This document shows, piece after piece, positions 7,544 through 22,365 of a stretch of 22,365 nucleotides of DNA. The stretch is taken from positions 1 through 22,365 of the forward strand of contig QMWA01000011.1 of NCBI GenBank assembly GCA_003661385.1, given 5' to 3'. This DNA is from Thermoproteota archaeon. Its GTDB lineage: Archaea > Korarchaeota > Korarchaeia > B14-G2. A program made the position numbers and the translations under genes. Position 1 is the first letter of the stretch. Every line of letters begins with the position of its first letter. The notes under the pieces are model-generated. The model was not told the DNA's origin. It made no database searches and saw only the letters and a list, made by a program, of their open reading frames with translations.

Positions 7544-7596
7544 CTGAGACATAAGAGAGTATCCAGGGCCCGTAGCTCAGCCTGGATGGAGCGCCG

Positions 7597-7611
7597 CCCA
7601 AGTGGGTGCAT
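7597..7611 (+). other. tRNA-Ile intron 1 (15 nt, position 29/30)
   Basis: The central helix is GCGC (7591-7594) with GTGC (7606-7609), including one G-U pair. The 5' bulge is CGC (7595-7597), cut after 7596. The 3' bulge is ATG (7610-7612), cut after 7611. The inner helix is only CC/GG around an AAGT loop. This is a very small intron in the anticodon stem, a non-canonical site. Confidence 0.8.
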
Positions 7612-7619
7612 GCCTTATA

Positions 7620-7666
7620 AGGGGCTCCCCGGTACACAAATACATGTCCCCCCGGGGGGCTAAGAC
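7620..7666 (+). other. tRNA-Ile intron 2 (47 nt, position 37/38)
   Basis: The central helix is CTTA (7614-7617) with TAAG (7661-7664). The 5' bulge begins TAA (7618-7620), cut after 7619, and the 3' bulge is ACA (7665-7667), cut after 7666. The intron body can pair 7624-7630 with 7654-7660, which leaves a slightly relaxed 5' bulge. This is the standard archaeal tRNA intron site. Confidence 0.78.
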
Positions 7667-7709
7667 AGCCGGAGGTCGGGGGTTCAAGTCCCCCCGGGCC
7701 CACTCCTTT

Positions 7710-11079: not shown

Positions 11080-11165
11080 AGCCCCGTGGTGTAGCTGGCC
11101 AAGCACGAGTCCTTGAATGCCGGACTTTGGATCCGGAGACGCCGGTTCGAATCCGGCCGGGGCTA
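11080..11165 (+). tRNA. tRNA-Gln(UUG) with a 12-nt BHB intron in the D arm
   Basis: The acceptor stem AGCCCCG (11080-11086) pairs with CGGGGCT (11158-11164); the discriminator is A and CCA is not encoded. The T arm is GCCGG/CCGGC around TTCGAAT, and the anticodon arm is CCGGA-CUUUGGA-UCCGG with anticodon UUG (11127-11129). Between the D arm and the anticodon stem there are 12 surplus bases, removed as an intron at 11106-11117. The mature form is 74 nt. The A1-U72 pair and overall sequence are typical of archaeal tRNA-Gln. The last three bases overlap the stop codon of gcvPB on the other strand. Confidence 0.93.
11106..11117 (+). other. tRNA-Gln intron (12 nt, position 24/25)
   Basis: The central helix CAAG (11100-11103) pairs perfectly with CTTG (11112-11115). 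The 5' bulge is CAC (11104-11106), cut after 11105. The 3' bulge is AAT (11116-11118), cut after 11117. The remaining inner part is one G-C pair with an AGT loop. The mature D stem becomes GTGT/GCAU. This is among the smallest introns that a BHB can hold. Confidence 0.82.
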
Positions 11166-12698
11166 CTTGCCACCCTTCAGGTACATCCTCCATGACAACA
11201 CTGGCCTTTTAGCTGCCTGCGCTTCATCAACCCTCCTAACTGATGTGTTATGGGGGGCAGTTAGGACAGATTCAGGAGAGCTATAGCATTCCTCAATTAT
11301 CCTCTTCATAACCTCATAGAATAGATCCAGATCCTGCTTAGTTGCAGACTCTGTAGGCTCTACCATCATAGCCTCACGTACTATCAAGGGAAAGTATACA
11401 GTCGGTGGGTGTATGCCAAAGTCTAAGATTCTTTTGGCAATATGAGCCATTCTTACTCCAGTCTCCCTCCTAACTTTCCTCAAGCTAACTGTAAACTCAT
11501 GAGCCCTTAGCCTACCTCCATCAAAGGGGACTTCTATACACTCTATAGACTTGAGCTTCTTAAGCAAGTAGTTTGAGTTGAGCACAGCTATGCCAGAGAC
11601 TTCTCTTAACCCCTCCAAGCCTAGGGCCTTAATGTATACCAGCGCCTTGAGGAGTACTGGGAAGTTACCGAGATATGGATGCACTCTCCCAATCGACTTG
11701 GGCCCACGATCCTTAAGCCTATAGACACCCTTCTCGCATACGATGTCTGGTGAAGGCAGATACTCAGCTAGCTCTTCAACTGCCCCAACTGGACCTGCCC
11801 CAGGGCCTCCACCGCCATGTGGCGTCGAGAATGTTTTATGGAGGTTGAGGTGAGCTATATCAACTCCCAGCTCGGAGATCTTAACCCTCCCGACTAAGGC
11901 ATTCAGGTTTGCTCCATCATAGTACACTAGACCTCCAACATCATGAACTATTTCACATATCTCCTTAACCCTATGCTCAAAGATCCCTAGAGTATTAGGA
12001 ACTGTAAGCATGATCCCAGCAGTTCTACGCGATACTGTCGCCTTAAGAGCCTCAATATCTACTGTACCATCCTCTCCACTTGGTATTTTGACCACTTTAA
12101 AGCCGCACATAGCAGCGCTGGCAGGATTAGTGCCGTGTGCAGAATCAGGGATCAGCATTTCATCTCTGTCTTCACCACGTAGCTTATGGTACTTCCATAT
12201 CATCTTACACCCTGTATACTCTCCGCCAGCACCAGCAAAGGGCTGGAGTGTAAAGTCATGTAGCCCAGTTATCTCACAGAGGAGCTTCTTAAGCTCATAT
12301 AGTATCTTCAGGCAGCCTTGAATCCACTCTTCTGGAGCATGTGGAGAAGCCATCTGAACCTGCTCAAAGCGGGCTATACGCTCACATATCTTGGGATTGT
12401 ACTTCATCGTGCATGAGCCCAACCAGTATGGGCCGCTATCGACACCATAGTTCATCTGGCTAAGCCTAGTGTAATGCCTAACAACCTCTACCTCACTGAC
12501 CTCAGGTAAGGCTAGCTCCCTCCTAAGGACGCTTGGAGGCACTAGCTTGCTTGGTTCGCCTACTCTTGCTTTAACTCTCTCTTCTATCGGAGAGAACTTG
12601 AATCCAACCTTACCACGCTGGGAGAGCTCGAATATAGTGGGCTCTAGCAGCTGCTCACTACTTCTCCACCTAGCTTGAGTACAGGGCTGAGGCTTCAA
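11163..12698 (-). CDS. gcvPB: Glycine dehydrogenase (decarboxylating) subunit 2
   Basis: A 511-residue PLP-bearing half of the split P protein of the glycine cleavage system. It decarboxylates glycine and loads the aminomethyl group onto lipoyl-GcvH. The PLP lysine is visible in DIAHLNLHKTFSTPHGGGGP (about residue 284). Other conserved parts are GSCTMKYNPK (about 92-101), LQPFAGAGGEYTG and PDSAHGTNPASAAMCGF. The start is ATG at 12698, overlapping the stop of gcvPA by 4 bases, so translation is coupled. Its N-terminus is a little long compared with many archaeal versions, but the ARWRSSEQLLEPTIFELS part fits the family. Its stop codon overlaps the last three bases of tRNA-Gln on the opposite strand. 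Confidence 0.96.
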   Translation of the reverse strand: MKPQPCTQARWRSSEQLLEPTIFELSQRGKVGFKFSPIEERVKARVGEPSKLVPPSVLRRELALPEVSEVEVVRHYTRLSQMNYGVDSGPYWLGSCTMKYNPKICERIARFEQVQMASPHAPEEWIQGCLKILYELKKLLCEITGLHDFTLQPFAGAGGEYTGCKMIWKYHKLRGEDRDEMLIPDSAHGTNPASAAMCGFKVVKIPSGEDGTVDIEALKATVSRRTAGIMLTVPNTLGIFEHRVKEICEIVHDVGGLVYYDGANLNALVGRVKISELGVDIAHLNLHKTFSTPHGGGGPGAGPVGAVEELAEYLPSPDIVCEKGVYRLKDRGPKSIGRVHPYLGNFPVLLKALVYIKALGLEGLREVSGIAVLNSNYLLKKLKSIECIEVPFDGGRLRAHEFTVSLRKVRRETGVRMAHIAKRILDFGIHPPTVYFPLIVREAMMVEPTESATKQDLDLFYEVMKRIIEECYSSPESVLTAPHNTSVRRVDEAQAAKRPVLSWRMYLKGGK

Positions 12699-14071: not shown

Positions 14072-15355
14072 CTACTTAAGTCTTAGCACAGTTCCCTTGA
14101 GGTAGGTTGGAGCACACCCCTCCACCCTTACCTCGCACCACCTCCCTAAGGCAGAGGAGGGGGCATCTACTACAATAGGCTTATAGGACCTAGTCCTAGC
14201 AATAAGCCCGCCTCTGGGCCCCTCCTCAACTATGAGCGCTTCGACAACTTCGCCAACATACTGGGCATTCTGCTCCATAGCAGCCTTTCGGAAGACAGCT
14301 AAGAGCTTCTTCACCCTCCTCTTGACAACCTGGGGGTCTAGCTGCTTCAGAGTAGATGCTGGAGTCAGCGGTCTATGCCCGTATCTCGATATGTTAAGGA
14401 CATCAGGCTTAACTTCCTCTATCACAGCTAGAGTATCGTTAAAGTCACTCTCAGATTCTGTCGGGTAGCCAACTATAACATCTGTTGCTATAGTACACTG
14501 CAACTTCTCCCGGAATAACCTAGCTAGCTCCAGGAAGTCAGCTACTGAGTAGGTGCGATTCATATCAGCTAGCACCTTATCTGAGCCAGACTGAAGAGGA
14601 AGGTGAATGAAATTGTAGACCTTCTCATGAGATACGGCTTCAACCAGCCCATTTAACACCAGAGTGGCTGAGGAGGGGTTCATCATGCCAACTCTTATCA
14701 TGAAGTCCCCAGGCACATTAGCAACCTCCTTAACCAGGTCTGGTAGCTGATAATGCCTGTAGAGGTATGAAGCAGTGTCCTGTGAGGTCAGCCACACCTC
14801 CTTAATGCCATCAGCTACAGCTTCACGCACCTGCTTGAGAATAGAGACAAGAGGTCTCGATAGCAGAGCCCCTCTGGCAAACCTAACACAACAGAAGGAA
14901 CAAGCAAACTTGCATCCATTGGATATAGCCACAATTTCTATCAGAGGATTCATCCTGAAGGACTTATGAATGGAGATAGGAGAATACTCCTTTACCACGG
15001 ATATTCCTCCCTTCAGCGCAAGTTCACATGCATAGGGGAATCTACCAATAGAGTGGGGGGTTATAATCGAGCAGCTCAAGTCCTTCACAAGCTTCATGAC
15101 AGACTTTGGTGAGATAAGATATATGCAACCAGAGACTATGAGAGGCTTCCCAATATTGGCTAGCGCTTTTATTCTGCTGAGCATCCGAGCTTCTGTTGGC
15201 GACTTGACAGCGCATGTGTGTACTACAAGAATGTCAGCTTCATTGGGATTGTTTACCAACTCAAGATTCCTAAAGTGCCTTCTAGCTAAGGATATCATCA
15301 GCTCTAGATCTGACCTGTTAGCTGGACACCCATAGCACTCTACATATAGCCTCAA
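14072..15355 (-). CDS. MiaB/MtaB/CDKAL1-type tRNA methylthiotransferase
   Basis: A 427-residue radical-SAM methylthiotransferase, probably making ms2t6A at position 37 of tRNAs that read ANN codons, as archaeal CDKAL1-like enzymes do. The N-terminal UPF0004 domain carries three cluster cysteines in ECYGCPANR, VHTCAVKS and VSGCIYL. The radical-SAM motif is CKFACSFC in SNGCKFACSFCCVRFARG, and FIHLPLQSGSDKVLADMNR is the usual family element. A C-terminal TRAM-like domain (about 365-427, YVGEVVEALIVEEGPRGG) closes the protein. The start is TTG at 15355, since family members open with a short Y-V-E-x-Y-G-C leader and GGTGTGGTGAG lies just ahead; GTG at 15385 is in frame. It heads the gcvPA-gcvPB run. 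Confidence 0.9.
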   Translation of the reverse strand: MRLYVECYGCPANRSDLELMISLARRHFRNLELVNNPNEADILVVHTCAVKSPTEARMLSRIKALANIGKPLIVSGCIYLISPKSVMKLVKDLSCSIITPHSIGRFPYACELALKGGISVVKEYSPISIHKSFRMNPLIEIVAISNGCKFACSFCCVRFARGALLSRPLVSILKQVREAVADGIKEVWLTSQDTASYLYRHYQLPDLVKEVANVPGDFMIRVGMMNPSSATLVLNGLVEAVSHEKVYNFIHLPLQSGSDKVLADMNRTYSVADFLELARLFREKLQCTIATDVIVGYPTESESDFNDTLAVIEEVKPDVLNISRYGHRPLTPASTLKQLDPQVVKRRVKKLLAVFRKAAMEQNAQYVGEVVEALIVEEGPRGGLIARTRSYKPIVVDAPSSALGRWCEVRVEGCAPTYLKGTVLRLK

Positions 15356-15680
15356 CTCACCACACCATGTGCGCCGTACTTCCACTAATACACATGGCTA
15401 AATCTGAAACACCAACTTGAAATAAATAACTACACACGACGGAAACCTTAGTCAAAAAGTAGGCAGACATAGGTCTACTCCATGTAGCATTATTATTTCA
15501 TCAAGAGAAGCATGTCATGCTATGGCTGAAGCATAGATATGAGTGCATGTGGGGTAACTATTAGAAATGTTAATCAGTAATCTAGAAAAATGAGATGTAT
15601 ACATTAATAGCTGAGAGTTGCCATAGAAGGGAGGAGAGTTAAAGTAGGTATTACCTTGCATAATAGAAGTGGTGCGTGGG
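15356..15680. other. Divergent intergenic region before ftsZ
   Basis: About 325 AT-rich bases lie between the methylthiotransferase start and the ftsZ start, by far the longest gap in the window. I see no gene in it. For the minus-strand gene, GTTATTTATTTC (15430-15419) is a TATA-like box. For ftsZ, GTATACATTAATAG (15598-15611) is a possible box that would leave a leader of about 50 bases. A short hairpin CTATG/CATAG lies near 15517-15536. No tRNA, CRISPR or clear C/D-box RNA was found by eye. Confidence 0.4.
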
Positions 15681-16874
15681 ATGGCAAGCACATACAAAAT
15701 TGATGCAATAGACATGCTAGATATACCTCCGAACATAAGGTACCTCTATGTTGTTGCAAGAAAACTTCTGAAGAGTGAGGAGGAGGAAGGGAGGATAGTA
15801 GCGCTGCCAGAGCATGCATTGAAAACCAGGCACATAGTCAAGGTGATCGGTGTAGGAGGGGGAGGATGTAATACTGTGACTAGGCTGGCTAGCCTTGGTG
15901 TTAATAATGCTGAGCTGATAGCCTTAAACACAGATATAGCTCACATGAAGAGAGTAACAGCCCACAAGAAGGTCCTGATAGGCCAAGACCTCACTAAGGG
16001 AAGGGGGTGCGGTGGTAACCCAGACTGCGGCTTCAGAAGCGCTGAAGAGAGTGCAGCTGAAATAGAGGAACTCATAGGTGAAGCTGAGGTAGTATTCGTT
16101 GCGTTAGCACTCGGAGGTGGGACTGGAACGGGAGCTGCGCCAGTGATATGCAAGATAGCTGAGGAGAAAGGGGCGCTTGTGTTTGTGGTAGCCACGCTCC
16201 CGTCCCCAAGACATGAGAGGGTAAGGTATGAGAAGAGCCTCCAGTGGATCAATAGGATACGCGAACATGCTCATACCATAGCCTTAGTCTCCAACTCCCA
16301 GATATTCGAGCTATTTAAGGAGCTTCCACTGAACGAAGCCTTGAAGCTAGCTGATACAGGGCTTGCCTTGATGGTCAAGGGGCTAACTGACATAATCAAC
16401 GAGGAAAGGCCTGGCATAATAAACATAGACCTAGCAGATCTCAGGGCTATAGCAACAAAGGACACAGACTCCGTGATCCTGATAGGATATGGGGAGGGGG
16501 AGAGAAGAGCAGAGGACGCACTCTATACAGCATTGAACTTCCCGCTGTTCCCTGAAATAGACCTGACAACCACTAGAGCTGCAATAATATACATTAGAGG
16601 GCCAGACGACTTGTTAGCTAGCGAGGTCAACTACATTCTAGAGGCGTTCCGAGAGAAGATACCAGAGGACGCTGAAGTCATATGGGGCTACGAGACTGAT
16701 GCCACAATGGAGGGGCTTGAGCTGATCTTAGTGGTCTCAGGGGTGGCAAACATAGAAGCACCTTCAACTATTCCAGCAGTCCAGTGGCAACTATCTCAGG
16801 CTCGTGGCAGACCTCGTGTGAGGGATAAAAGGAGGATACTTGAGGAAGTACTCGACAAGAATGACTGGATATAA
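15681..16874 (+). CDS. ftsZ: Cell division protein FtsZ
   Basis: A 397-residue tubulin-family GTPase that polymerises into the division ring. Evidence is the N-terminal glycine loop VIGVGGGGCNTVTRL (about residues 57-71), INTD-like ALNTDIAHMKRV, the tubulin signature LALGGGTGTGAAPV (about 144-157) and the T7 catalytic loop NIDLADLRAIATKDTD (about 249-264). A preface of about 50 residues precedes the GTPase core. Cysteine replaces usual residues in GGGGCNTV and GRGCGGNPDCG. The C-terminus ends in a basic stretch and DKNDWI, a possible partner-binding tail. ATG at 15681 is chosen; in-frame GTG codons at 15669 and 15672 are alternatives. No sepF or cdv gene is in the window. The rpa-like gene downstream has its own promoter. 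Confidence 0.96.
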   Translation: MASTYKIDAIDMLDIPPNIRYLYVVARKLLKSEEEEGRIVALPEHALKTRHIVKVIGVGGGGCNTVTRLASLGVNNAELIALNTDIAHMKRVTAHKKVLIGQDLTKGRGCGGNPDCGFRSAEESAAEIEELIGEAEVVFVALALGGGTGTGAAPVICKIAEEKGALVFVVATLPSPRHERVRYEKSLQWINRIREHAHTIALVSNSQIFELFKELPLNEALKLADTGLALMVKGLTDIINEERPGIINIDLADLRAIATKDTDSVILIGYGEGERRAEDALYTALNFPLFPEIDLTTTRAAIIYIRGPDDLLASEVNYILEAFREKIPEDAEVIWGYETDATMEGLELILVVSGVANIEAPSTIPAVQWQLSQARGRPRVRDKRRILEEVLDKNDWI

Positions 16875-16887
16875 GCTGATTAATCAC

Positions 16888-16896
16888 TTATAAATC
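16888..16896 (+). promoter_or_regulatory. TATA box for the RPA32-like gene
   Basis: CTTATAAAT in the 52-base gap after ftsZ is about 27 bases before position 16919, giving a leader of under 10 bases to ATG 16927. It probably starts the translation-factor to topoisomerase run. Confidence 0.6.
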
Positions 16897-16926
16897 CCCT
16901 CCACCCCGATATTTCTGTGGTTTTGA

Positions 16927-17565
16927 ATGAGTGAAGCTTATACTCCAGTGTCAATAGCCCAGCTGATCTCGGAAGCTGATAGAGAGAGAGCAAGCAAGGC
17001 ATTAACATGCAGAGTAGCAGGTGTTGTAACAAGTATAGAGGACAAAGGAGGGGCAGTCGAGCTTGTCTTAGATGACGGGAGCGGGTACAGGCTGCCAGTG
17101 GTTGCTAGGAAGAGTAGCATATTGCAACCAGAGATAGCAAGAGGCTGCTTCATAGAGGTTCTTGGGAGAGTGTGGAATAGAAGAGGAGAACCCGTAGTAT
17201 TTAGCGAGCTAGTAATCAAGATAGACGTTATGAGGTTCCTGCTTAGGAAGTTAGAGACCATTAGGAGAAGAAGGATAGCCCCCACAGCTAGAGCTGAGGC
17301 TACCGAGGAAGTGCATGAGGTGAAAGTGGAGGCTCCAACTGGAGCCGAGGTAGCTACAGAGCACCAGGATGTAGCTTCTCTGCTGATTCAGGTGATAGGA
17401 GACAATGAATATACATTAGAGGAGATAGAGGGAAAGTTAAAAAAGTATGGAGTTAAAAGAGAGGACATAGTGAAAGCAATCATACAGCTTGAGGAAGAGG
17501 GCCTAATCTACGCTGTAAGAAGGGGTATAGGCCCTCAAAAGTACAAGGTGTTAAGGAGGGATTAA
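16927..17565 (+). CDS. OB-fold plus winged-helix protein, RPA32 (RPA2)-like
   Basis: A 212-residue protein with an N-terminal OB fold of the tRNA_anti/RPA type (about residues 25-105: CRVAGVVTSIEDKGGAVELV, LDDGSGYRLPVV, FIEVLGRVWNRRGEPVVFSE). A Lys/Arg/Glu/Ala-rich linker (about 112-145) follows, and then a C-terminal winged helix (about 147-212, YTLEEIEGKLKKYGVKREDI, AIIQLEEEGLIYAV). This is the arrangement of the middle subunit of replication protein A, a single-strand DNA-binding complex. Other RPA subunits are not in the window. It is followed one base later by the aIF2-beta gene, linking replication and translation genes on one transcript. Confidence 0.8.
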   Translation: MSEAYTPVSIAQLISEADRERASKALTCRVAGVVTSIEDKGGAVELVLDDGSGYRLPVVARKSSILQPEIARGCFIEVLGRVWNRRGEPVVFSELVIKIDVMRFLLRKLETIRRRRIAPTARAEATEEVHEVKVEAPTGAEVATEHQDVASLLIQVIGDNEYTLEEIEGKLKKYGVKREDIVKAIIQLEEEGLIYAVRRGIGPQKYKVLRRD

Positions 17566-17566
17566 A

Positions 17567-17986
17567 TTGTCTACAACCGAAGAGGAGTACCTGGCCATGC
17601 TAAAAAGGGTGAGAGAGAAGCTCCCCAAGGTTCTCGAGACCTCAGAGAGGTTTGTCATACCAGATCCCGAAGTAGTTCATGAAGGAGGCTACACGCACAT
17701 CTTGAACTTCAAGGAAATAGCTGATGCAGTAGACAGAGATCCAGATCACATCATCTTGTTTTTATCACATGAGCTTGGAGTCCCTATAGTTAAGGCTGCT
17801 AAGAGGCTCATCCTACAGGCTAGAGTGAAGAGGAGGCTTATTGAGGACAAGATCCAGAAGTATATCAAGAACTATGTCATATGCCCTGAGTGCGGTAAGC
17901 CTGATACAAAGCTAATAAAGCAGAAGAGGTACGTTTACTTGAAGTGTGAAGTTTGTGGAGCTGAGACTCCTGTTAGAAAGGTCTAG
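17567..17986 (+). CDS. Translation initiation factor 2 subunit beta (aIF2-beta)
   Basis: A 139-residue subunit of the heterotrimeric factor that brings Met-tRNAi to the small ribosomal subunit. It shows the N-terminal helix, the central alpha-beta core (RFVIPDPEVVHEGGYTHI, NFKEIADAVDRDPDHIILFL, SHELG) and the C-terminal zinc ribbon CPEC...CEVC (about residues 105-131), with KLIKQKRYVYLKC between the pairs. The start is TTG at 17567, one base past the previous stop, with AAGGAGGG 6-8 bases upstream, a strong ribosome-binding site. The length is typical of archaeal members. Confidence 0.96.
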   Translation: MSTTEEEYLAMLKRVREKLPKVLETSERFVIPDPEVVHEGGYTHILNFKEIADAVDRDPDHIILFLSHELGVPIVKAAKRLILQARVKRRLIEDKIQKYIKNYVICPECGKPDTKLIKQKRYVYLKCEVCGAETPVRKV

Positions 17987-17993
17987 TGGGGTG

Positions 17994-18338
17994 ATGTTCA
18001 TCGCAAGCAGTAAAGAGAGGAAGAATGAAGCTGAAACCGCTACTGATAAGGAGATGGAGGAGGTACTTCCAAGCCCAGGAGAGTGTGTAGGAGTAGTGTT
18101 AGAGCCTCTTGGAGCAGGCAGAATGAGAGTCCAGTGCGCTGATGGAGTCATTAGAGTATGCAGGATAAGGGGTAAGCTCAGAGGGAAGAGGAGCTGGCTT
18201 AAGCCAGGTGACGTAGTCCTGGTGTCAGTATGGGAGTTCCAACCGAGAAAAGGCGATATAGTGCTAAAATATGACGCAAAACAGGTCAGATGGCTGATAA
18301 AACACGGCTACATCGATGAAAGCTGGATAGCAGAATAG
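17994..18338 (+). CDS. Translation initiation factor 1A (aIF1A)
   Basis: A 114-residue single OB-fold factor that acts in the ribosomal A site during start-codon selection. The OB fold covers about residues 30-95: GECVGVVLEPLGAGRMRVQC, DGVIRVCRIRGKLR, VWIxxGD-like SWLKPGDVVLVSVWEFQPRK and DIVLKYDAKQVRWL. Before it is a charged tail of about 28 residues. ATG at 17994 is preferred; GTG 17991 is adjacent and the ribosome-binding purines (GTGGGG) overlap this spot. It follows aIF2-beta by 7 bases and precedes RIO1 in the same frame, with only a TAG between them. Confidence 0.95.
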   Translation: MFIASSKERKNEAETATDKEMEEVLPSPGECVGVVLEPLGAGRMRVQCADGVIRVCRIRGKLRGKRSWLKPGDVVLVSVWEFQPRKGDIVLKYDAKQVRWLIKHGYIDESWIAE

Positions 18339-18350
18339 CAGGGGATCAGG

Positions 18351-19085
18351 ATATCTAGAGAAGCAGTAGCTAGGAAGATATTCGAGGAAGGAAGAGTATA
18401 CCAAGCAGTTTTAGACAGAAGGACGATAAGGAACCTGATAGCATTAGCCAACAGAGGAGTGATAAAGAAAATCGGATGGATAATCTCTGCAGGAAAGGAG
18501 GCGCATATATTCTCTGGAGAGGGAGAGCATGGAGAGATAGCCATAAAAATACACAGCGTACAGATGGTGAGATTCCGAAAGCACAGAGTATACATGAGAG
18601 GAGACTACAGGTTTGATACAGCCCCACTGTCAGGCAGAAAGATGTATGCTGTCTGGGCTAGGAAAGAGTACAGGAACCTGCTGAAAGCGTATAGAGCTGG
18701 AGTCAGTGTGCCTAAGCCGATAGCGATAAGGGAGAATGTTGTTGTCATGGAGTTTATAGGAGAAGATGGGCTTCCAGCACCTCTGCTAAAGGATGCTGAG
18801 GTGAAAAACCCGGAGGAACTCGCGTCTAGGATATTAAATGATGTGGAAAAGCTCTATAGAGAGAGCAGACTTGTGCACAGTGACTTAAGCGAGTACAACA
18901 TAATGTACTGGAGAGAAAGACACTACATCATAGACTGGTCTCATGCTGTTGCAATAGACCACCCTAAAGCCATAGAATTCCTCTACCACGATGTGAAGGC
19001 TGTGACAGCCTTCTTTAATAGGGAGTATAAGGTTGAGACCCCAGACGCAAAGGAAGTTGTCAAAAGGATAGTTAGAGGGGGCTGA
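18351..19085 (+). CDS. RIO1-type serine protein kinase (non-standard start suspected)
   Basis: A RIO1 kinase/ATPase, involved in small-subunit ribosome maturation. Visible are the P-loop ISAGKEAHIFSGEG, the AIKIHS lysine, YMRGDYRFD, the hinge MEFIGEDGLPAP, the catalytic LVHSDLSEYNIM and the metal-binding IIDWSHAV (usually followed by Q; here H). The first standard start is GTG at 18459, yet the family's N-terminal winged helix is coded upstream in the same open frame (FEEGRVYQAVLDRRTIRN, LIALANRGVIKK), back to about 18354. Between the aIF1A stop (18336-18338) and 18459 there is no ATG, GTG or TTG. ATA at 18351 behind GGGGATC is my best guess, giving 244 residues. A sequence error or another expression mechanism is possible. 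Confidence 0.85.
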   Translation: MSREAVARKIFEEGRVYQAVLDRRTIRNLIALANRGVIKKIGWIISAGKEAHIFSGEGEHGEIAIKIHSVQMVRFRKHRVYMRGDYRFDTAPLSGRKMYAVWARKEYRNLLKAYRAGVSVPKPIAIRENVVVMEFIGEDGLPAPLLKDAEVKNPEELASRILNDVEKLYRESRLVHSDLSEYNIMYWRERHYIIDWSHAVAIDHPKAIEFLYHDVKAVTAFFNREYKVETPDAKEVVKRIVRGG

Positions 19086-19086
19086 G

Positions 19087-19653
19087 ATGGCAGAGGAAGA
19101 GCTTAGGATCCCAATTGATCGAGTTGGAGCTCTAGTAGGAGCTTCAGGGTGGGCTAAGAGGCTGATAGAGAAGACCCTTGGCGTCAAGCTGAAAATTGAC
19201 AGCAACACAGGAGACGTTAAGATAACCTGCGAAGACGAGAGCTCTGCTGCAGTCGCCATGTGGAAAGCTAAGAGAGTTATAGAAGCCATAGGCTTGGGCT
19301 TTAACCCAAAGAAGGCACTTCTCCTAGCAGGAGACGAGTACACGCTAAGTGTAATCGACTTAAGCGAGTATGCACCCACAAAGAACTCTCTAATCAGGAT
19401 TAAGGGGAGGATAATAGGAAGGAAAGGTAAAGCCAGAGAAAACCTTGAAAGGTACACAGACACATATATTTCGGTTTATAGAGATAAGATAGCCATAATA
19501 GGGAAGATAGAAGACGTTAAGCTGGCTGAAAAAGCTATAGAGATGCTAATAGAGGGAGCAGAGCATTCAACAGTCTATAAGATGCTGGAGAGAGAAAGCT
19601 GGAGGAGAAAGCGCGACGAGCTCCTTAGAAAAGGCGGGATCCCGCTCTGGTAG
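19087..19653 (+). CDS. KH-domain protein, archaeal Dim2/Pno1 homolog
   Basis: A 188-residue RNA-binding protein with two KH domains. The first is divergent (about residues 6-70, IPIDRVGALVGASGWAKRLI). The second has a good GxxG loop in IRIKGRIIGRKGKARENLE (about 101-119). The C-terminal STVYKMLERESWRRKRDELL is typical of the Pno1/Dim2 family. It acts in 16S rRNA 3'-end maturation and binds near the same region as RIO1; the adjacency of rio1 and dim2 is a widespread archaeal arrangement. ATG at 19087 lies one base after the RIO1 stop, and the gene is followed by top6B 8 bases later. Confidence 0.93.
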   Translation: MAEEELRIPIDRVGALVGASGWAKRLIEKTLGVKLKIDSNTGDVKITCEDESSAAVAMWKAKRVIEAIGLGFNPKKALLLAGDEYTLSVIDLSEYAPTKNSLIRIKGRIIGRKGKARENLERYTDTYISVYRDKIAIIGKIEDVKLAEKAIEMLIEGAEHSTVYKMLERESWRRKRDELLRKGGIPLW

Positions 19654-19661
19654 GTGATGCC

Positions 19662-21209
19662 ATGCCTAGAAGAGAAGAGTACGTTGAAATAAGCCCCTCA
19701 GACTTCTTCTACAGAAACAAGGACATAGCTGGCTTCGACAACCCTGTGAGAGCAACCTATATGATAGTCCGGGAGCTCGTCGAGAACGCTTTAGACGCAT
19801 GTGATAGAGCAGGCAGAGCAGGCAACATATACGTAGCATTCAGAGGAAAAGGAAGTGGGGTATTCCAGGTTGAAGTGCTAGATGACGGGATAGGGGTACC
19901 AGAAGACGAGATACCTAAAGCCTTCGGGAAAGTCCTTTACAGCTCAAAATACGTCCTAAGGCAGAGCAGAGGGACATTCGGGCTAGGAGGAACCATGGCA
20001 CTACTCTACGGGCAGATAACAACACACGAACCATTTGAGGTATGCTCCTCGATAGGAGACGGCTACGCCGCTAGATACAGGCTGAGAATAGACATACAAA
20101 ACAACAAACCAATAGTAGAGAGAAAACAGAGGATAAAGGTTCCCCCAGGAGCCACATTCACCCTAGTAAAGCTCACCTTCGAGGGAAACTACGAGAGAGC
20201 AAAGGGGAAGATCTTAGAATACCTAAAGCAGACAGCAATAATAACACCCTACATCAACATAGTGTTCAGAGACCCAAAGGGAGCAATATACGTCTTCCCA
20301 AGAGCTACAACAAAGCTCCCAGAGGAACCTAAGGAAAGCAAGTACCACCCATATGGTGTTGACGTCGAGGTCTTGAAGAGGCTGATAAGCGAGACAAAAA
20401 CCAGGAACCTAGTGTCCTTCCTGTCAAAGAGCTTCCAGAGCATGGGAAGGCAGACAGCAATCAAAGTACTGAAGAAAGCCAGGCTAGATCCAGAGAAAAA
20501 CCCAAGAAAGCTGACTGACAGAGAGCTAGTCAAGCTGGTCAGAGCGCTGCGAAGCTACGACAAGTTCAGAGCACCAGACGCATCATGCCTATCCCCAGTA
20601 GGAGAAGAAGCCCTAGAGAAGGGAATAGTCAAGGAGCTACGCCCAGAATTCGTCAAAGTCGTGCAAAGACCTCCATCAGCCTACGAGGGGCACCCATTTA
20701 TAGTTGAGGTGGGAGTAGCATATGGAGGAGGAGTCCCAGCTACAGGAGACATAGTACTCTACAGGTTCGCCAACAGAATCCCACTCCTATACGATGCTGC
20801 AAGTGATGTAGCATATAAGGTCATCAGGAAGATAGACTGGAGCACATACTACGTGGATCCAGCTAGGACGCCTATGGCAGTCTTCGTCCACATATGCTCC
20901 ACCAAGATCCCATTCAAAACCGTGGGCAAGGAGTTCATAGCCGACAAGCCAGAGATAGCAAGGGAAATAGAGCTTGGAATAAGGGAGTGCGCCAGAGCAT
21001 TGAGAAGCTACATACTGAAGAAGATAGCCAAGCAGAGAATAGTAGAGAGATACAAGATAATGAGGAAGTACTATGAGATAATATCTGAGTCCCTCTCTGA
21101 GATACTGGGCCGGAGAATAGACCCAACCCCCGTCCTGAAGAGGATAGCCAAGCCAGCTGGCGAGGAGGTGAGTGAGAATGGAGAAGCTGACAATAGAGAA
21201 AATCTATGA
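19662..21209 (+). CDS. top6B: DNA topoisomerase VI subunit B
   Basis: A 515-residue ATPase subunit of the type IIB topoisomerase. The GHKL ATP-binding site is clear: ELVENALDACDRAG (about residues 38-51), LDDGIGVPEDEI (about 75-86) and RGTFGLGGTMALLYGQ (about 103-118). An H2TH-like region (about 240-310, FQSMGRQTAIKVLKKARLDP) and the transducer domain follow. The switch lysine lies in STKIPFKTVGKEFIADKPE (about 410-428). The C-terminal helix leads into the subunit A contact. ATG at 19662 is preceded by GGTGATGCC. It overlaps the start of top6A by 32 bases, the normal coupled layout. Confidence 0.97.
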   Translation: MPRREEYVEISPSDFFYRNKDIAGFDNPVRATYMIVRELVENALDACDRAGRAGNIYVAFRGKGSGVFQVEVLDDGIGVPEDEIPKAFGKVLYSSKYVLRQSRGTFGLGGTMALLYGQITTHEPFEVCSSIGDGYAARYRLRIDIQNNKPIVERKQRIKVPPGATFTLVKLTFEGNYERAKGKILEYLKQTAIITPYINIVFRDPKGAIYVFPRATTKLPEEPKESKYHPYGVDVEVLKRLISETKTRNLVSFLSKSFQSMGRQTAIKVLKKARLDPEKNPRKLTDRELVKLVRALRSYDKFRAPDASCLSPVGEEALEKGIVKELRPEFVKVVQRPPSAYEGHPFIVEVGVAYGGGVPATGDIVLYRFANRIPLLYDAASDVAYKVIRKIDWSTYYVDPARTPMAVFVHICSTKIPFKTVGKEFIADKPEIAREIELGIRECARALRSYILKKIAKQRIVERYKIMRKYYEIISESLSEILGRRIDPTPVLKRIAKPAGEEVSENGEADNRENL

Positions 21210-22287
21210 GATAGCTGAGAAAATAGGAGAGATGATAGAGAGGGGAGAACCTCCTCTGCTTGAGTACCCACCAGCATCCACAAGCAACATAGAGTTCAGT
21301 GAACACGAGGGGTACAAGTTCGCACCCAAGTACTGGTCTAAGATACTTGGAAGCCACATCAAGAGCGTCAAGACGCTCGCAGGCGTGATATTCGCATTAG
21401 AAAGGTGCCTAGACCACATGAAAAGCGGGCTCACAATGACCAAGAGAGACTTCTACTACCTCCATAAAGTCGAGAAATTCAAGGGGACACTATTCCCATC
21501 AGATCAGAGAGAAACAGACACCAGAATAGTCCTACTAGAACTCATAACAGGCCTATCCAGAGAAATGCTCTCAATAACATCCGACCCAAGAGGAGAAGTC
21601 TATGGTGACATAACCCTAGTCGACAAAAGCGGGAACACCATAAAGCTCAACAAAGTAGGTGAAATGGGCTACGCTGTCCCACCAAACCCAGAGCACATAA
21701 AGTTCAAGGAGATAAACGTCAAAGCAGTGCTAGCAGTAGAGAAAGTAGGACCAGCAAAGAACATGATAGAGCTAAAGATCCCAGATGAGTATAACATCGC
21801 GATAGCAATGCTACATGGCCAGCCCTCAAGGAGCATGAGAAGATTCCTCAGAATGATCAGCGACAAAGGAGTCCCAATAGCAGTCCTAGTAGACCTATCA
21901 CCATGGAGCATCAGAATAGCATCCACCGTAATATACAACAGCATCCACTCAGCCCACATACCAGGGCTAGCAACCCCAACAGCCAAGTTCATAGGAATAC
22001 ACTCATCAGACGTTGAAGAAGGAGGGTTCTTCGAGAAGGTAAGCAAAGTAGCTCTCGAACCTCTAACGGAAGAAGACCTAAAGTGCGCCAAAGACAACCT
22101 CTCAATACCAAGCCTGATGGGAAAGACGTGGATAAGAGAAAACAAGTGGTTCCTAGAAAAGAAGAAGAAGGCAGAACTCGAGATTTTCAAGGCAATGATA
22201 AGAAAATCCTCAGAACTAAAGGACCTATACATCAGATACCTTAACATGAAGTTCGAGGAACATTTAAATCTAAGCTTGAAAGAGTAA
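21178..22287 (+). CDS. top6A: DNA topoisomerase VI subunit A, with an atypical Toprim motif
   Basis: A 369-residue Spo11-like DNA-cleaving subunit. The 5Y-CAP domain has the catalytic tyrosine motif KRDFYYLHK (Tyr93/Tyr94). In the Toprim domain the Glu is kept in AVLAVEK, and the glycine-loop region reads MLHGQPSRSMRRFLRM. The metal-binding D-x-D-P-W/Y-G motif, however, reads VDLSPWS (D239-L-S241), so the second Asp and the Gly are both Ser. LATPTAKFIGI downstream is typical. ATG at 21178 is chosen because GAGGTGA lies 6 bases ahead; GTG at 21172 is in frame. The gene is otherwise intact, of normal length and in the usual operon. The 3' end contains the tRNA-Glu TATA box. Confidence 0.95.
   Translation: MEKLTIEKIYEIAEKIGEMIERGEPPLLEYPPASTSNIEFSEHEGYKFAPKYWSKILGSHIKSVKTLAGVIFALERCLDHMKSGLTMTKRDFYYLHKVEKFKGTLFPSDQRETDTRIVLLELITGLSREMLSITSDPRGEVYGDITLVDKSGNTIKLNKVGEMGYAVPPNPEHIKFKEINVKAVLAVEKVGPAKNMIELKIPDEYNIAIAMLHGQPSRSMRRFLRMISDKGVPIAVLVDLSPWSIRIASTVIYNSIHSAHIPGLATPTAKFIGIHSSDVEEGGFFEKVSKVALEPLTEEDLKCAKDNLSIPSLMGKTWIRENKWFLEKKKKAELEIFKAMIRKSSELKDLYIRYLNMKFEEHLNLSLKE
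22261..22270 (+). promoter_or_regulatory. TATA-like box for tRNA-Glu inside the top6A 3' end
   Basis: CATTTAAATC, within the last codons of top6A, is centred about 30 bases before the first base of tRNA-Glu at 22296. Confidence 0.45.
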
Positions 22288-22295
22288 CCATAGGT

Positions 22296-22365
22296 GCTCC
22301 GGTAGTGTAGCCAGGCCAAGCACGGCGGCCTTTCGAGCCGCTAACGCGGGTTCAAATCCCGCCCG
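22296..22365 (+). tRNA. tRNA-Glu(UUC), cut by the window end
   Basis: The acceptor 5' strand is GCTCCGG (22296-22302). The D arm is GTGT...GCAC, and the anticodon arm GCGGC-CUUUCGA-GCCGC has anticodon UUC (22332-22334). The T arm is GCGGG/CCCGC around TTCAAAT. The window ends at position 68; the last three bases, CCG, match the start of the acceptor 3' strand. No intron is seen, unlike the other two tRNA genes here. Confidence 0.95.

Follow-up and report, generated by a model that had tools for sequence, protein, structure and literature searches.

A korarchaeal tRNA-Ile gene with two introns and an encoded UAU anticodon, and the probable reading of AUA without TiaS

In most archaea AUA is decoded by tRNA-Ile2(CAU), in which TiaS converts C34 to agmatidine (PMC11938285). 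Is AUA read in that way in the korarchaeal genome considered here, or directly by a tRNA-Ile whose gene already encodes a UAU anticodon? The question is raised by a gene at 7566-7702 on the + strand of the window, by which is meant the whole 22,365-nucleotide stretch of DNA analysed (contig C11 of the source genome, G000). The source genome, an assembly of 1.74 Mb that is 91% complete, is the sole member of its family among the genomes searched. AUA is the commonest isoleucine codon in the window: ATA accounts for 345 of the 549 isoleucine codons (63%) and for 5.0% of the 6954 codons in the 24 window open reading frames. Its share of isoleucine codons is 29/38 in ftsZ, 35/41 in top6B and 25/34 in top6A, which bears out the original prediction that ATA is common in window genes, top6A and ftsZ among them. 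Korarchaeum and Nanoarchaeum are already known from the literature to have a UAU tRNA-Ile, and the arrangement in K. cryptofilum and N. equitans corresponds to the one described below (PMC6000648, PMC8450103).

The gene is complete and is interrupted by two introns, both in the anticodon arm. Exon 1 (7566-7596), delimited by sequence and cloverleaf fold in agreement with relatives, supplies the acceptor 5′ strand, the D arm and positions 26-29, and ends in CCG. The 15-nt intron that follows, CCCAAGTGGGTGCAT (7597-7611), is at the noncanonical position 29/30, and its excision restores a perfect CCGGC/GCCGG anticodon stem. Exon 2, GCCTTATA (7612-7619), comprises positions 30-37, with the anticodon TAT at 7616-7618. 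The second intron, of 47 nt (7620-7666), is at the canonical position 37/38, as judged from inspection of the sequence and from relatives, whose UAU genes have introns at this site. Exon 3 (7667-7702) supplies A38, the 3′ side of the anticodon stem, the variable loop, the T arm, the acceptor 3′ strand and discriminator A73; CCA is not encoded at the 3′ end. On inspection, the UAAG before the 3′ site of the second intron can pair with C32-U33-U34-A35 in a bulge-helix-bulge-like arrangement, with a 5′ bulge that appears relaxed and not of textbook form. Moving the cut by one base (7621-7667) gives an identical mature RNA, and the two cuts are indistinguishable. The three exons when spliced give GGGCCCGTAGCTCAGCCTGGATGGAGCGCCGGCCTTATAAGCCGGAGGTCGGGGGTTCAAGTCCCCCCGGGCCCA, 75 nt, in which all four helices are perfectly paired (−38.8 kcal/mol for the cloverleaf fold). 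The anticodon loop is C32-U33-U34-A35-U36-A37-A38 (CUUAUAA), and the anticodon is therefore UAU. A tRNA-Ile at exactly 7566-7702, with this loop once both introns are removed, had been predicted; the perfect cloverleaf, and orthologs in the class whose stems agree with it, confirm both points.

No tRNA gene is listed at 7566-7702 by ARAGORN or by Rfam at gathering score, and a whole-genome search with a tRNA model gave only 17.8 bits, for 7604-7702, the 3′ part of the gene. It is missed by plain tools because the two introns interrupt the anticodon arm. Of the 26 genomes in the class Korarchaeia, 25 have an orthologous UAU gene, so its occurrence is not due to chance; wherever both could be read, a genome has one UAU gene and a separate GAU gene. 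The one exception, G019 (72% complete), gave GAU only. In most class relatives the 29/30 intron is missing and the sequence runs GCCCGC-CTTATA, then the intron, then A-GCGGG, and it is this largely uninterrupted 5′ anticodon stem that fixes the splice pattern. An intron at the 29/30 site of the window gene is also found in G020, G021 and G025 and is absent from the other relatives, while every class relative with a UAU gene has the 37/38 intron in it. In one class genome, G002, the UAU gene has one intron and the GAU gene none, which fits the pair published for Candidatus Korarchaeum cryptofilum OPF8 (PMC6000648); G002 is probably that genome. A scan of named genomes with the ATP-NAD kinase neighbouring the tRNA gene found no relatives.

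The nearest known system is the tRNA-Ile(UAU) of K. cryptofilum, which likewise combines a UAU anticodon, an Ile-type body near identical to that of its GAU tRNA and a 37/38 intron with absence of TiaS, the last as found in G002, the probable OPF8 genome. The window gene differs in its extra 29/30 intron and in the greater length (47 nt) of its 37/38 intron. The GAU partners differ too: that of the source genome (L035/L070, contig C2, up to 25860) is readable with three introns, of 12, 14 and 20 nt, whereas the K. cryptofilum GAU gene has none and that of most class relatives is also intronless.

Taken on its sequence, the gene is best explained as encoding the korarchaeal AUA-reading tRNA-Ile, with two introns that are spliced out and an encoded UAU anticodon, TiaS being both unneeded and absent; we put the probability of this at about 0.93. 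The archaeal splicing endonuclease and ligase would remove both introns, as structure and orthologs suggest, leaving a mature tRNA that should bear the genomically encoded UAU. IleRS would be expected to charge it, since it has an Ile-type body, U33, A37 and A73 and is almost identical to the GAU tRNA; the anticodon would pair with AUA by ordinary Watson-Crick pairing. As the encoded UAU would read AUA directly, neither the TiaS/agmatidine step nor a C34-Ile2 tRNA would be needed. The archaeal tRNA-Ile2(CAU)/TiaS pair does the same job, the reading of AUA as isoleucine, but there C34 is modified after transcription and TiaS is required, whereas T34 is encoded in the window gene. A comparable replacement of both modified-C34 tRNA and enzyme by an encoded UAU is known from Mycoplasma mobile and other bacteria without TilS (PMC4810244, PMC8450103), though the enzyme lost there is TilS, in archaea TiaS, and the bacterial UAU genes are mostly intronless among the matches listed. 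Direct AUA decoding, as originally predicted, is thus favoured by the gene itself, by its orthologs, by the absence of TiaS and by the way in which TiaS and UAU genes replace each other across archaea.

That replacement appears strict. Of 150 archaeal genomes, 63 have TiaS only, 73 a UAU tRNA-Ile only, none both and 14 neither (Fisher p about 8e-29, a value that ignores phylogeny). The UAU set of 73 consists of 50 genomes caught by a pattern of GCTCAG D arm plus anticodon, 18 caught with GCTTAG, and five class members with intron-split genes recognised by inspection; a match in G091 (loop GATTTTATA) was discarded from the GCTTAG set as not being a tRNA. Outside the class, UAU was found in 0 of 63 TiaS genomes vs 48 of 61 others. 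Counted by family outside the class, 26 of 66 families have TiaS, 31 have UAU and none has both (p about 6e-11, phylogeny again being ignored). The genomes in which neither was caught (G019, G032, G038, G060, G068, G074, G085, G094, G098, G102, G108, G114, G116 and G120) may have UAU genes with other D arms or with stem introns, may owe the result to draft gaps, or may have a third way of reading AUA. Among the named matches listed, UAU genes occur in Woese-, Pace-, Micr-, Aenigmat-, Diaphero-, Nano- and Altiarchaeota, mostly DPANN, and also in Thermoproteota MAGs, one Thermoplasmata MAG and some bacteria. Among 167 archaea surveyed in 2018, UAU was found in two genomes (PMC6000648), the pair also noted with tRNAscan-SE 2.0 (PMC8450103). 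The supposition that UAU tRNA-Ile is confined to a few lineages, made when the gene was first noticed, was accordingly too narrow. A search of open-access text found no paper on the TiaS/UAU complementarity or on intron bias in DPANN.

The UAU genes are, in addition, strongly biased towards introns. Among D-arm pattern matches, 47 of 50 archaeal genomes have an interrupted UAU gene vs 11 of 68 with an interrupted GAU gene, and an intronless form was seen in 3/50 UAU genomes vs 57/68 GAU genomes. Where both genes were caught (26 genomes), 20 combine an interrupted UAU gene with an intact GAU gene and 0 show the reverse; 16 of these 20 discordant genomes come from a single family, so that relatedness inflates the counts and few of the cases are independent. 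A 37/38 intron, of 19-54 nt, is present in 57 of the 61 parsed archaeal UAU loci among the named matches listed; of the 14 bacterial loci there, 12 parse without an intron. All four of C32-A35 are paired with the intron by the central helix in 40 of the 57 named loci, again among the matches listed. Such pairing is expected of any bulge-helix-bulge intron at the 37/38 site.

This bias suggests, by analogy with the eukaryotic case, an intron-dependent wobble modification in archaea. Yeast tRNA-Ile(UAU) has an intron, and Pus1 makes ψ34 and ψ36 only on the precursor, with its anticodon-intron helix (PMC11408192). Eukaryotic tRNA-Ile(UAU) resembles the window gene in having UAU within an intron-containing precursor with the intron at 37/38; its anticodon becomes ψAψ through the intron-dependent Pus1 (PMC11408192), whereas pseudouridine in the archaeal tRNA is hypothetical, and in eukaryotes AUA is also read by an IAU tRNA (PMC4810244). 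By the same analogy, the very tRNA described above may have its U34 modified in an intron-dependent manner, to pseudouridine for instance, such that it reads AUA and not AUG, with the 37/38 intron kept for that purpose. The intron counts, the 20:0 discordance, the contrast with bacterial loci and the yeast Pus1 precedent all favour this; the relatedness behind those counts and the few archaeal UAU genes that are intronless speak against it, as does the finding, made in a B. subtilis tilS deletion strain, that a UAU suppressor tRNA lacking modification shows strong binding to AUA and only weak binding to AUG (PMC4810244). In organisms with neither TilS nor TiaS, unmodified U34 is thought likely (PMC4810244). 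Nor does the TruA/Pus1-type family track UAU. A single-copy and divergent TruA-like gene is in 18 of 25 UAU class genomes, outside the class the family turns up in 11 of 48 UAU genomes, and overall it is in 29/73 UAU genomes vs 48/63 TiaS genomes, a distribution that gives no support to TruA as the U34 enzyme. Since TruA does not track UAU and intronless UAU genes exist, intron-dependent modification is put forward as a hypothesis only, and we consider it possible but doubtful. Its fuller form seems unlikely, if worth stating: in archaea that have lost TiaS, the helix of intron and anticodon would serve as substrate for modification of the wobble U, to pseudouridine or otherwise, and the 37/38 intron would be kept for that reason, U34 then reading A and not G. 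Such a system would match the eukaryotic ψAψ, whether by convergence or through common ancestry, and would probably depend on an enzyme other than TruA/Pus1 or on a guide RNA.

Direct reading by an encoded UAU also has to be weighed against decoding by a CAU tRNA whose C34 carries agmatidine or some other modification, made by an enzyme that is highly diverged or fell outside the assembly, the UAU tRNA then being redundant. The original prediction had pointed to tiaS and an Ile-type CAU tRNA as the genes to look for. The TiaS_FLD domain (PF08489) has no match in the source genome even at E 1, and none in any of the 25 class relatives, while the positive controls, 63 of the 150 archaeal genomes and four archaeal control genomes, do match. 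The source genome alone is weak evidence, being a 91%-complete draft, and the absence therefore rests on the class, where 15 of 26 genomes are at least 90% complete with low contamination. A full-length TiaS protein query also gave no full-length match in the class; the weak matches, mostly of 30-60 residues over the zinc-ribbon part (query ~357-428), were rejected. One class genome of 2.9 Mb with 6% contamination, G017, has two genes (L220, C123 around 15182-22171) resembling only the N-terminal part of TiaS, at 33% and 29% identity, which might be taken to favour a diverged enzyme. They were rejected as TiaS, and are likely to be paralogs of other function, since they cover only TiaS residues ~9-165 and have no FLD match.

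The CAU tRNA itself was looked for in several ways. A search of the source genome with the acceptor/T-arm sequence CGGGCCCA gave one UAU tRNA-Ile, one GAU tRNA-Ile and a third match (contig C149), which reads as tRNA-Arg(CCG) with introns and was rejected as Ile2(CAU). Two patterns and the tRNA model revealed no Ile2(CAU) in the source genome or class; of these, the CAU D-arm pattern detects Ile2 poorly, giving two matches in only 9 of the 63 TiaS-positive genomes. The sole CAU tRNA recognised in the source genome is elongator Met. The tRNA inventory, based on pattern and model searches, is incomplete for CAU, as tRNA searches did not locate initiator Met; this, and the draft state of the genome, leave a modified-C34 route some room. 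Against it are the uniform lack of TiaS_FLD in the class, the failure of UAU and TiaS to coincide in any of the 150 genomes and the published absence of Ile2(CAU) from K. cryptofilum, which has the UAU tRNA-Ile (PMC8450103), and it is regarded as very improbable.

That a different splice pattern yields some other mature anticodon, or that the gene is a pseudogene, might be argued from its two introns (one noncanonical), the relaxed bulge at 37/38 and its poor showing with general tRNA tools, but is scarcely credible when the anticodon stem is perfect only with the proposed intron removal, orthologs whose 5′ stem is unbroken show CCCGC-CTTATA, the 29/30 intron is common to three relatives and, if this gene is set aside, no tRNA found in the genome would read its commonest isoleucine codon.

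Other tRNA genes of the window and genome may be recorded here. That at 11080-11166 is called tRNA-Ile(aat) by ARAGORN, or tRNA-Leu(gag) with introns allowed, and reads better as tRNA-Gln(UUG), with stem CCGGA/TCCGG, loop CTTTGGA and a ~12-nt intron near 25/26. At 22296-22365 there is a tRNA-Glu(UUC), loop CTTTCGA, its acceptor 3′ strand truncated by the contig end. In many tRNA genes of the source genome (L014, L025, L026, L012) introns lie at noncanonical sites; in elongator Met, among others, such an intron is in the T loop. The load recalls Thermoproteales, for which a heavy tRNA intron load has been described.

The window gene is thus a new korarchaeal example, at the level of the family, of the published exception to agmatidine decoding. 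Over 150 genomes, and 66 families outside the class, TiaS and UAU tRNA-Ile act as strict alternatives, and UAU is therefore to be seen as a second major archaeal solution to the reading of AUA, not as a peculiarity of two species. That UAU genes are so biased towards introns may offer one new handle on how, in these archaea, U34 avoids reading AUG, and would turn its discrimination between AUA and AUG into a simple test on one tRNA.
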